From positions 1 to 64,000 of the forward strand of contig DATAUW010000030.1 of NCBI GenBank assembly GCA_036268055.1: a DNA stretch of 64,000 nucleotides, in the 5' to 3' direction. The translations under genes and the position numbers were made by a program. This DNA comes from Verrucomicrobiia bacterium. GTDB taxonomy: Bacteria; Verrucomicrobiota; Verrucomicrobiia; Limisphaerales; Pedosphaeraceae. This document shows positions 27,309 through 29,865 of the stretch, one piece after another; position 1 is the stretch's first letter; each line of letters opens with the position of its first letter. Under the pieces are notes generated by a model. That model searched no databases and was not told the DNA's origin. It saw only the letters and a program-made list of their open reading frames with translations.

Positions 27309-27905
27309 TCACCGAAACACGGCCTCGCGTTCGGTTTTTCCGAAAGCGGTCGCCAAGAACAGGTCAAGCCGCTCGTTTTCGATAAGCCCGAATTGTTTCA
27401 GCACGGCAGTACCAATGAGTTTGCCGGTGAATTCCCTGACCGGAAGGAATTCGTTGATCGCTTGCAGGACACGCGCGCAATCGCCTTCCTCCGGGTCTAT
27501 CCCGGAGAACGAATCTTTATATTTCGGTTCGTTGTCATTCAGGCCGGCATAGATAGTTGTCTCATTCTCCTCCGCGATTTCAGCCGGACGGAAAAAAACG
27601 CGGGCGTCTTCGCGGATAAGCCGTTGGTCGCCCAGCAGCCAAACCAGCACCGAGCCATTTTGCAGGCTGGAACGCGCATTGGTGATGACCCGCGTCTTCG
27701 GCGAGCGGGCAAGCAGCACCGACCGCATGAGCAGCGCCAAGTCCGCCGGAATTTCTCCAATGCCGATCATGTCTATCTTGACGGTGCGCGGTTTGCGCGC
27801 GAGGAGCCGTTCCAATTTTTTAATCCGTTCGATGTAATAGGAATTCGCGTATGACAAAATTCTGAGTTCGAATTTGCAGAAACGCGGTTGCGTGCGTGTT
27901 TTCAT
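27309..27905 (-). CDS. Possible degenerate ClpP/crotonase-fold protein
   Basis: 198 aa, no signal peptide. Residues about 40-110 (VKIDMIGIGEIPADLALLMRS, RVITNARSSLQNGSVLVWLLGDQRLIREDARVFFR) have the strand-turn-helix order of ClpP/SppA-like or crotonase folds, in which the second segment would carry the catalytic Ser. The usual G-x-S-x-S/A motif is not intact. The rest is alpha-helical. This is a fold guess only. The gene is not in a clear operon; a leftward terminator-like hairpin precedes it. Confidence 0.5.
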   Translation of the reverse strand: MKTRTQPRFCKFELRILSYANSYYIERIKKLERLLARKPRTVKIDMIGIGEIPADLALLMRSVLLARSPKTRVITNARSSLQNGSVLVWLLGDQRLIREDARVFFRPAEIAEENETTIYAGLNDNEPKYKDSFSGIDPEEGDCARVLQAINEFLPVREFTGKLIGTAVLKQFGLIENERLDLFLATAFGKTEREAVFR

Positions 27906-27948
27906 AGCGTTGTTAATTTAGGTTTCGTTGTAAAAATAATGAGATGGC

Positions 27949-27983
27949 AAAAAGAGGCGGGCGGAAGTTTTGCTTCCGCCCGC
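27949..27983 (-). terminator. Rho-independent-type terminator, leftward
   Basis: An 11-bp perfect stem (GCGGGCGGAAG at 27957-27967 with CTTCCGCCCGC at 27973-27983) and a five-base loop. Read leftward it is followed after three bases by five U. A 17-codon ORF ends 8 bases before it. Confidence 0.55.
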
Positions 27984-27991
27984 GCGAGTTC

Positions 27992-28045
27992 CTACCTCCA
28001 AGGCGGTTTATTGAGTTGAGAGAAAGTGATTCGGTGTAGCGCCAT
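27992..28045 (-). CDS. Possible 17-aa peptide ORF
   Basis: ATG at 28045 to TAG at 27992, encoding MALHRITFSQLNKPPWR. It is followed 8 bases later by a terminator hairpin. Its start has no convincing ribosome binding site. It may be a chance ORF within a small RNA. Confidence 0.2.
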   Translation of the reverse strand: MALHRITFSQLNKPPWR

Positions 28046-28054
28046 TAAGCTCGC

Positions 28055-28089
28055 TAAAAATTAAAAGGCCGGGAGTCGTTCACCCCCGG
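28055..28089 (-). terminator. Rho-independent-type terminator, leftward
   Basis: An 8-bp stem with one G-U pair (28069-28076 with 28082-28089) and a five-base loop. Read leftward it is followed by CCTTTTAATTTTT. It lies 39 bases after the stop of a 63-aa ORF. Confidence 0.6.
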
Positions 28090-28128
28090 TCACATGCGTG
28101 CAATAGAGAACAAACACCTCTTGGTGAT

Positions 28129-28320
28129 CTATGCGATCCCAACCCGCGGTTTCATGGCGGTTGTTTCGGTGTTTAGGGGCACACCTCCTGCGAAGCCCTT
28201 GATTGCTAAAAATCGGGTTTTACTATCTGGCGCGTCATCCGGCCACTTATCGGCACACCTCATAGGCGGCCAGCCGTAGCTTGCCTGCGCTAAATTTGAC
28301 TTATCACTGATAGACATCAT
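28129..28320 (-). CDS. Possible 63-aa small protein
   Basis: ATG at 28320, starts MMSISDKSNLAQASYGWPPM. Polar, with Trp and Pro, no signal peptide or membrane segment. It is one of three short leftward ORFs each followed by a terminator-like hairpin. Homology is not recognised; the transcript could equally be a noncoding RNA. Confidence 0.3.
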   Translation of the reverse strand: MMSISDKSNLAQASYGWPPMRCADKWPDDAPDSKTRFLAIKGFAGGVPLNTETTAMKPRVGIA

Positions 28321-28399
28321 TTAGACGTCGCGCTTCTATAGTTCACAGTTATTGAATATTTCGTTACTGTCATTTGCTTTTGCAATACTACGTGGACAA

Positions 28400-28433
28400 C
28401 AAAAAACCCTGCTTCCTTTCTGGCAAGCAGGGT
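28400..28433 (-). terminator. Strong rho-independent terminator, leftward
   Basis: Read leftward: ACCCTGCTTGCC, loop AGAAA, GGAAGCAGGGT, then six U. The stem is about 11 bp with one bulged G. It lies 350 bases after the dinB stop, and 20 bases after the stop of a 52-aa ORF. Confidence 0.75.
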
Positions 28434-28453
28434 GAGAAAGCTTAAAAATTCCT

Positions 28454-28612
28454 CTACCTGCCTGCCTCCACTCTATCAAATCCAGCTTCAAAAGACTGGC
28501 TCTGGCCTTTGATGGATGCACCGGGATTAAACATATAGCCACGGCTTAAAAGGCATGAGCGCGTCGGCATCATTGGCCATTCCGGGGTTGATATGTTTGC
28601 ATGTGTCATCAT
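28454..28612 (-). CDS. Possible 52-aa small protein
   Basis: ATG at 28612 to TAG at 28454. It starts MMTHANISTPEWPMMPTRSC and ends FEAGFDRVEAGR, with an acidic-basic tail. A strong leftward terminator follows 20 bases after the stop, so a transcript ends here. No ribosome binding site is obvious. No family recognised; coding status is uncertain. Confidence 0.3.
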   Translation of the reverse strand: MMTHANISTPEWPMMPTRSCLLSRGYMFNPGASIKGQSQSFEAGFDRVEAGR

Positions 28613-28785
28613 TTATTTCGTGGCGTGACTCTATCTATGAGTAATAGACAGCGCAAGAATTATTTTCCACATTCCGCCATTTTTATTGGCAATTCTTTAA
28701 TTCTCATATTCGGATAAGTAGATGGATTTAATTGAATTGAGATTTACTTAATTCCCTAACTAAGTGCGTGACAAAGATAGCTTCT

Positions 28786-29865
28786 CTATTTAAGCGCGAG
28801 CGCCAGTTGGTGATTTATGGTTTCTCCCAGGCCGCTTACTCCCAGCCCAATGAGTCGCAACGGTCGCGAAACCAATCGGTCGCGCGCCAGGATGTAGCAT
28901 CCGAGTCGATAGATTTGAGCCGCTTCCGTGATCGGCTCTTCCACACTCAACTGGCGGGTCAGGGTCGTAAAATCACTGTAACGCAATTTCACTTGCACCG
29001 TCTGGGCTCCGATCCGGTGGCGTTTTAATTTCGCGGCGATGTCTTCGGCTTGTTCTCGTAAACAGGCGCGCAGGATCTTCCGATCATCAGTATCGCGAAG
29101 AAAGGTGTTCTCGCTGCTGATGCTTTTCACTTCGTCACTGCTGTCGAGCGGGCGATGATCTTCGCCAAACCCAAACCGTTTCAGCACCGGGCCGAAAGAG
29201 CCGATCAGCGCCCTCAAGTCGCCCGGATAATCCTGAAGATCGCCAATGATTTCGATGCCCGCGCGGTTGAGCACTTCCTGGGTGACTTTGCCCACGCCAT
29301 GCAACGCGCGAACTTCCAGCGGACGCAGGAAAGCCACCTTATCGCGCTCGGCAATCAGCGTCAGGCCATCAGGCTTTTTAAAATCGCTGGCTAATTTGGC
29401 GAGCAATTTATTCGCGGCGATGCCAATGCTCGCCGTCAATCCACGTTCGGCCGAAATTCTTCGTTTCAATTCGTCTGCCAATGGCAATGCCTGAGCGAGG
29501 CTCAAGTCCGCATCCGCTTGCTGGCAGATCGGAGAGAAATCCAAATAAGCCTCGTCCACGGAAACTTGCTCAACCATCACATTCGGCAACGCGATGATCC
29601 GCATGATCTCGGCGGATTCCTCGCGATAACGCTGCATGCGCGGGCGCATGAAAATTCCATTCGGGCAAAGCCGCCCGGCTACGGAACTGGGCATGGCCGA
29701 GCGCACGCCGAATTTACGGGCTTCGTAACTCGCGGCGCATACGACCCCGCGTTGTGTGGGCGGCGCGCCCACGATGAGCGGCTTGCCTGCAAGGGCCGGG
29801 TTGTCGCGCTGCTCGACGGACGCATAAAACGCATCCATGTCTAAATGCAAAATGACCCGAAACAT
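28786..29865 (-). CDS. dinB: DNA polymerase IV (Y family)
   Basis: 359 aa from the ATG at 29865 (MFRVILHLDMDAFYASVEQ); a start at 29877 is also possible. Error-prone translesion polymerase. Catalytic acids are in LDMDAFYASVE and SVDEAYLD. The helix-hairpin-helix KVTQEVLNRAGIEIIGDL region and the C-terminal little-finger domain are present. The product is full length. No beta-clamp motif was clearly identified at the C-terminus. The stop is 350 bases before the leftward terminator at 28433. SOS control is plausible for the family, but no LexA site was identified. Confidence 0.95.
   Translation of the reverse strand: MFRVILHLDMDAFYASVEQRDNPALAGKPLIVGAPPTQRGVVCAASYEARKFGVRSAMPSSVAGRLCPNGIFMRPRMQRYREESAEIMRIIALPNVMVEQVSVDEAYLDFSPICQQADADLSLAQALPLADELKRRISAERGLTASIGIAANKLLAKLASDFKKPDGLTLIAERDKVAFLRPLEVRALHGVGKVTQEVLNRAGIEIIGDLQDYPGDLRALIGSFGPVLKRFGFGEDHRPLDSSDEVKSISSENTFLRDTDDRKILRACLREQAEDIAAKLKRHRIGAQTVQVKLRYSDFTTLTRQLSVEEPITEAAQIYRLGCYILARDRLVSRPLRLIGLGVSGLGETINHQLALALK

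Follow-up and report, generated by a model that had tools for sequence, protein, structure and literature searches.

What do three consecutive short open reading frames (ORFs), each trailed by a terminator-like hairpin, encode on the minus strand of this Verrucomicrobiota DNA? In the window, by which we mean the whole 64,000-nucleotide stretch analyzed, we confirmed that ORF1 (28612-28454), ORF2 (28320-28129), and ORF3 (28045-27992) are each followed by a hairpin and a U tract, as a sequence-only reading had described. That reading also took the terminators for something other than the usual ends of genes, and we agree; the hairpins after ORF1 and ORF2, named Terminator 1 (T1) and Terminator 2 (T2), are conserved as parts of a leader. 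Its suggestion that the units encode peptides or small RNAs held in part: ORF1 looks like a conserved peptide ORF, but one belonging to a cis-acting leader, ORF2 appears to be part of a structured RNA, and ORF3 is probably a chance ORF. We thus read the three units as one leader and not as three independent genes. We consider it likely that this region forms the 5′ leader of an RNA-repair and reserve-tRNA operon of Verrucomicrobiota, regulated by ribosome-mediated transcription attenuation and serving as a general rather than an amino-acid-specific sensor.

The region is flanked upstream by a dinB-like gene (29904-28786, minus strand), named from its translation. All other parts lie on the same strand. 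A candidate promoter (28628-28656) consists of TTGCGC (28656-28651) and TAGAGT (28633-28628) separated by 17 nt; each box matches at four of six positions by eye, and both are absent from the output of a consensus promoter scan. TTGAC- and TATNNT-like boxes at a comparable spacing from the start codon were seen by eye, uncounted, in many homologous leaders. ORF1 (28454-28612, 52 codons, stop TAG at 28456-28454) would encode a leader peptide containing all 20 amino acids, and no Shine-Dalgarno sequence was noticed before the leader. The end of ORF1, GGCAGGCAGG (28457-28466), is a putative antiterminator segment complementary to the T1 5′ arm (28431-28422). T1 (28401-28433, hairpin approximately 28433-28406) has the arms ACCCTGCTT and AAGCAGGGT followed by a T6 tract, and is conserved in homologues. 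A further hairpin, GACGTC-TAAAT-GATGTC (28313-28329), overlaps the ATGATG start codons of ORF2 (28129-28320, 63 codons) with its 3′ arm; by eye, its stem is kept and its sequence varies. The conserved RNA core (28105-28194) comprises GGAGGUGUGCC, a local GGUGU/ACACC hairpin, a CCGC/GCGG hairpin, a covarying third helix, and the boxA-like UGUUCUCU (28112-28105). Downstream follow the terminator-like hairpin T2 (28069-28089), located by the terminator scan and the homologue alignment, ORF3 (27992-28045, 17 codons, read by eye), the terminator-like hairpin T3 (27957-27983), and the gene of a 198-aa protein (27309-27905).

The density of terminators had been taken as a signal in itself. We dropped this argument, as a plain scan counted 9 terminator-like sites over 6 kb, compared with 9.7 (sd 3.5) in shuffled sequences. 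Density alone is therefore no proof; conservation is. The scanner missed T1 with its long loop, and single-strand folding of two of the units was uninformative (z of −0.11 and −1.14).

DNA from ORF1 to T2 was matched in 21 of the 58 genomes searched, the window's own genome included, which carries a second copy at G000:C17:38627-39044 (DNA search). Wherever the sequence extends that far, the aligned homologues (21 copies, some incomplete) retain both T1 and T2. Most aligned copies of unit 1 have an ATG start, GGAGGTAAGCAGGTAA or a variant of it at the end, and then ACCCTGCTTACC..GTAAGCAGGGTTTTTT, with the start and stop positions of ORF1 conserved. To cover the phylum, we used the pattern GGAGGTGTGCCYN{1,3}AAACACCGAAA from unit 2 on a collection of 84,980 bacterial and archaeal species, each represented by one genome, and obtained 108 matching stretches. 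Among the 80 titles listed for these 108, 77 bear names placed in Verrucomicrobiota and 3 say only 'bacterium'. Cultured strains with a match include Chthoniobacter flavus Ellin428 (two loci, one without a leader unit) and Verrucomicrobium sp. BvORR106; the leaders of BvORR106 and of the C. flavus locus L078 have 18 kinds of residue. Three contigs of a viral collection also matched (L160, L161, L162); they carry the leader core and long tRNA arrays, L160 and L161 being apparently the same region and L161 also having RtcB, and they may be chromosomal islands.

In the aligned copies, GGTAAGCAGG and the terminator's 5′ arm, CCTGCTTACC, are complementary, and the stop codon lies at the edge of the antiterminator; the window versions are GGCAGGCAGG (28466-28457) and CCTGCTTGCC (28431-28422). 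The predicted geometry is that of a classic attenuator switch between antiterminator and terminator. At 65 loci, the native pairing between stop region and T1 arm has a mean energy of −12.75 kcal/mol, lower than all 2000 trials in which loci were re-paired at random (mean −10.8, minimum −11.7 kcal/mol), and shuffled stop regions average −8.3 kcal/mol. From this we observed that the two segments change together across the set as a whole, with weak pairing in a minority of loci: 46 of 65 beat their own swap mean, 19 do not, and the single-locus z falls below −2 in 27. The best ungapped pairing reaches 8.23 of 10 positions compared with 6.89 of 10 in shuffles (60 of 64 loci), and 6 or fewer of 10 pair in five of these 60 (L059, L146, L160, L058, L128), a shortfall owed in part to misplaced hairpins.

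Which genes would such a switch control? Within 3 kb downstream of 111 loci, 452 tRNA genes run in the same direction as the leader and 1 runs in the opposite direction; the tRNA density is 1.75 per kb downstream versus 0.03 per kb upstream. At least one tRNA occurs within 2 kb in 63 of the 79 loci having 2 kb of sequence, and none in the other 16. RtcB (PF01139), Ro60 (TROVE plus vWA), HNH, and SPFH/Band 7 proteins are encoded among or near the tRNAs in the loci tested, RtcB or Ro60 being present in 18 of the 41 loci with 5 kb of sequence. At L042, a leader unit with T1 but without unit 2 directly precedes an ORF of the rtcB family (BLAST cluster). The arrays also contain a small conserved protein beginning MK(T/N)PIRFQSRLL(L/I)RRSYKP (L033:10791-10979:+, which has no NCBIfam match, and L034:9116-9361:+) and proteins of 264 aa (L028:10192-10986:+) and 589 aa (L030:14657-16426:+) that matched neither Pfam nor NCBIfam. 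About 140 nt past the core there is often the start of a tRNA-Gly(gcc) (L007:1066-1139:+, L008:1424-1498:-, L021:1330-1403:-), whose T loop appeared, by eye, to be non-standard at some of the loci.

An operon with RtcB or Ro60 was found in relatives and not at the window's own locus. Here there is no tRNA array, and the 198-aa gene comes directly after the leader. The window's genome has one rtcB, on another contig (L051), with no leader in the 4329 bases before it, and no Ro60 match. In five relatives (L057, L099, L102, L141, L156), a homologue of the 198-aa gene is found downstream of the leader, with array tRNAs detected in all but L102; the ORF upstream of the homologue encodes Ro60 in L141 and an SPFH protein in L156. 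By eye, a T3-like hairpin precedes the homologue in L102 and L141, two of the five loci, part of one can be made out in L156, and none of the five has an ORF3 counterpart there. Given this T3-like hairpin in relatives, the window operon seems shortened to the leader and the distal gene, and so seems to have lost its middle. The 198-aa protein has no Pfam or NCBIfam match. Its predicted fold has a mean pLDDT of 56.8, with residues 105-198 unreliable, and a ClpP/SppA-like N-terminal half (E 6e-4, TM below 0.5) is offered as a lead only.

The window copy might accordingly be a decaying, unregulated remnant left by deletion of the array. With the array and Ro60 gone and two partial copies in the genome, this is a real possibility, though we lean against it: an all-20 leader, the antiterminator, T1, and the RNA core persist in both copies, and each copy precedes a gene also occurring in arrays, which for the second copy is that of a small protein. 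Decay of this one copy would be compatible with the attenuator reading, which concerns the family.

A short leader ORF stands at a fixed place before the terminator in 91 of 111 core loci (the 108 stretches and the 3 viral-collection loci; rule-based extraction gave none in 20), in 23 of 24 genome copies, and in 10 of 10 held-out loci. Among the 24 genome copies, 21 have peptides of 49-59 codons with an ATG near the conserved place; the exceptions are L039 (32 codons), L031 (31 codons, an early stop in another frame), and L040 (none). Leaving out L031, the 22 peptides contain all 20 amino acids in 10 cases, 19 in 7, 18 in 3, 17 in 1, and 15 in 1, and windows of real proteins would give 0.57 peptides with all 20 (maximum 5 in 2000 draws).

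We extended this to 114 leaders, namely the 91 extracted by rule and 23 genome copies (some from the same loci), dropped three shorter than 40 residues, and clustered the rest at 60% identity. The resulting 64 leaders hold all 20 amino acids in 41 cases, 19 in 14, 18 in 8, and 17 in 1, so that 23 are without one to three of them. Length-matched windows of real proteins gave 2.74 all-20 cases (maximum 9 in 3000 draws), and the mean number of distinct residues is 19.48 versus 17.07 ± 0.21 expected. Clustered below 45% identity, 28 of 47 leaders are still all-20. The excess is seen in 15 of 28 distant representatives (1.49 expected) and in 26 of 36 near ones (1.26 expected), the leader at distant loci being taken as the longest ATG ORF in range. 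It persists in 34 of 64 leaders when the five final codons, being part of the antiterminator, are excluded. The other two sense frames of the same DNA average 17.4 and 17.5 distinct residues, codon-position shuffles 17.56, and uniform codons 17.95; antisense frame 0 is mildly rich (18.27, all 20 in 9 of 64). The leaders are related by descent, and the length-matched controls and the clustering lessen the longest-ORF and kinship biases in these comparisons, leaving a residue of both.

To obtain held-out loci, we used a covariance model of the unit-2 core (R1, built from 75 sequences) to search 383 genomes of the phylum. R1 matched in at least 11 of them, the window's own included, a lower bound given 11 scored candidates per genome and strict filters. 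On the window it scores 87.1 bits at 28105-28194, where 67 nt of the window are among the model's 75 sequences. All ten loci in other genomes have exactly one rule-meeting ORF before the terminator. These held-out leaders have 20 kinds of residue in 4 cases, 19 in 5, and 18 in 1, compared with about 17 in the length-matched windows of the 64-leader set; with one locus on a contig used before (L172, L122) and another similar to L100, about eight are new, and four of those come from one genus.

The enrichment falls on the rarest residues. Cys occurs in 98% of the leaders (44% expected), internal Met in 95% (57%), and Trp in 91% (52%), and Val is rarer than expected (0.89 versus 0.97). In eight of nine group-1 leaders without the usual Cys4, a Cys stands elsewhere. 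This specific enrichment over length-matched controls bears on whether the attenuator senses ribosome-targeting antibiotics or a general slowing of translation instead of tRNA loss, with its composition incidental. Drug-induced stalling on leaders is a known theme (PMC8632094), and a cyanobacterial tRNA array is induced by translation-targeting antibiotics (PMC10272220). We nevertheless think this unlikely, as Cys, Met, and Trp are specifically enriched and the downstream products are tRNAs and RNA-repair proteins.

Over 185 pairs, the pN/pS of the leader is 0.74 in frame; the two other frames give 1.05 and 0.71. The residues are thus without clear purifying selection, and we set pN/pS aside as proof that ORF1 is coding. 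The value fits selection on composition only and gives no separate proof of translation. Taken together, ORF1 looks like a leader peptide ORF whose amino-acid composition is kept rather than its sequence.

Unit 2 is different in kind. It is conserved at up to 92% over about 100 nt (DNA search), and its core is nearly invariant in GGAGGUGUGCC and AAACACCGAAA, partly since the search pattern demanded both. In as many as 39 of 75 sequences, the two sides of the third helix have both changed. The ORF2 frame stays open across the core in 26 of 35 group-1 representatives. We considered ORF2 as a second all-20 leader and found no support: none of the 26 has all 20 residues (mean of 18.1 distinct at 62 codons, uncorrected for length). 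We read unit 2 as a conserved structured RNA rather than a protein, with ORF2 probably no functional peptide gene.

Rfam searches gave no family for it. Over the leader region at a relaxed threshold, there were six weak matches, taken as chance; no T-box appeared among matches with E up to 10 over 27850-28850; and no family, GOLLD and ROOL included, came near threshold in the window element. At 20 homologous loci (E up to 0.01), nothing overlapped the element, the matches being tRNAs, a nematode sRNA family, and other chance families. L015 has two YrlA (Y-RNA-like) matches, below threshold and off the element. The large ornate RNAs GOLLD and ROOL often adjoin phage tRNA clusters. The Verrucomicrobiota loci likewise place a structured RNA before tRNAs, but the core is much smaller, lacks a near-threshold Rfam match, and is mostly bacterial (108 stretches versus 3 viral contigs).

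The motif GTTCTTT follows the core in 79 of 108 loci and resembles the boxA of rrn leaders of the same group. In four genomes, these read TGCTCTTTGAAA (L164, L165), GGTTCTTTGAAA (L163), and TGCTCATTGAAA (L166). The rrn leader of the window's genome has TGCTCTTTGAAAATTGAA, and the site in the window's own leader is TGTTCTCT. The boxA-like site might plausibly help to keep RNA polymerase going through kilobases of untranslated DNA.

Some loci have the core without a leader unit, indicating that unit 2 is a separable module. In L069, L104, and L144, such a core lies upstream of ORFs that by eye are serine-recombinase-like and ParB-like. Core-like sequences in L053, L070, and L077 share one isolate title (RYN_623); neither a nearby tRNA nor a leader unit was recognized at any of them. 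A core standing alone or before other genes, its strong conservation, and its covarying helix would also suit stand-alone small RNAs, each with its own terminator, whose T1- or T2-ended transcripts act in trans. Attenuated transcripts would be short RNAs anyway, and we find this improbable given the same-strand tRNAs that follow in 63 of 79 loci, the co-change of stop region and terminator arm, and the selected composition of ORF1. Least probable is that ORF1 is a functional small protein, rich in amino-acid types by happenstance: many group-1 members share a recognizable N-terminus (MKTC.NIS) and an ATRHSR motif, but distant leaders differ in sequence while keeping composition and stop place, as the clusters below 45% identity and the pN/pS near 0.74 illustrate.

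We are highly confident, judging from these comparisons, that the family is a conserved attenuator with a composition-selected leader peptide. Under this attenuator reading, a sigma-70-like promoter would start a transcript with a short 5′ UTR, and ribosomes would translate the leader of about 50-60 codons tending to hold all 20 amino acids. When every aminoacyl-tRNA is present, the ribosome would reach the stop codon and cover GGUAAGCAGG (GGCAGGCAGG in the window), so that the CCCUGC.../...GCAGGG terminator forms. Cleavage, lack of charging, or exhaustion of any tRNA would stall the ribosome upstream, the GGUAAGCAGG segment would pair with the 5′ arm of the terminator, and the polymerase would read on. 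It would then pass the structured RNA, where the boxA-like sequence may aid passage through long untranslated DNA, and readthrough would reach the tRNA array and the rtcB, Ro60, HNH, and SPFH genes. Of this picture, the anatomy, the conservation, the complementarity that changes in concert, the composition, and the gene context come from the computation, whereas promoter use, translation, stalling, antitermination, the boxA role, and activity of the window copy are inferred. Metering of every tRNA is the simplest reading of the leader composition together with the genes controlled. We think it fairly likely, somewhat less so than attenuation as such, that one leader peptide serves as a universal meter of tRNA integrity: a codon for nearly every amino acid would be kept in a freely drifting ORF of 50-60 codons, and loss of any tRNA would antiterminate an operon for tRNA resupply and RNA repair, possibly as a defense against phage or competitor toxins that cut tRNAs or ribosomes.

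How does this compare with known systems? In attenuators of the trp/his type, the stop codon lies by the antiterminator, antiterminator and terminator are mutually exclusive, and the downstream genes correct the sensed shortage; trp/his leaders carry regulatory codons for one amino acid and ilv-type leaders for a few. The Verrucomicrobiota leaders share the leader ORF, the placement of the stop, the exclusive structures, and downstream genes fit to correct a shortage. Unlike that type, they tend to sample all 20 amino acids and would govern tRNA genes and RNA repair instead of biosynthesis. We looked for repeated codons for one amino acid and found the all-20 composition instead, so we file the family as an attenuator variant and not as a trp/his-type member. 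E. coli trpL and hisL exemplify ribosome-mediated transcription attenuation (PMC1183508).

Two other systems resemble the genes rather than the switch. In Anabaena, a silent trn operon of 26 tRNA genes is induced by translational stress, and rtcB, HNH, and slipin genes of the TrcR regulon are under the same control (PMC10272220). The tRNA array, rtcB, HNH, and SPFH/slipin parts are matched here. Control in Anabaena is by the repressor TrcR at promoters, the text leaves attenuation unmentioned, and rtcB is chromosomal, apart from the megaplasmid array (PMC10272220). The Salmonella rsr-yrlBA-rtcBA RNA repair operon is induced by damaged tRNAs and shares RtcB, a Ro60-type protein, a Y RNA, and a damaged-tRNA response with the present family; it is under the activator RtcR, and its description mentions neither attenuation nor a tRNA operon, tRNA genes, or a tRNA cluster (PMC7790460).

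In open-licence PMC papers, our searches turned up neither an all-20 leader peptide nor the unit-2 RNA. To our knowledge, known leader-peptide attenuators each respond to a single kind of cue, such as one or a few amino acids or a drug. The leaders suggest that selection acts on which amino acids are present and leaves their order largely free. If an all-20-selected leader is indeed at work, it would be a general sensor of translation failure that can be read straight from sequence. It would also provide a genetic tool, one that reports damage to whichever tRNA is hit, and a route to tRNA-damage responses in uncultured bacteria. For the Verrucomicrobiota themselves, such a sensor would explain how their reserve tRNA arrays are switched on.
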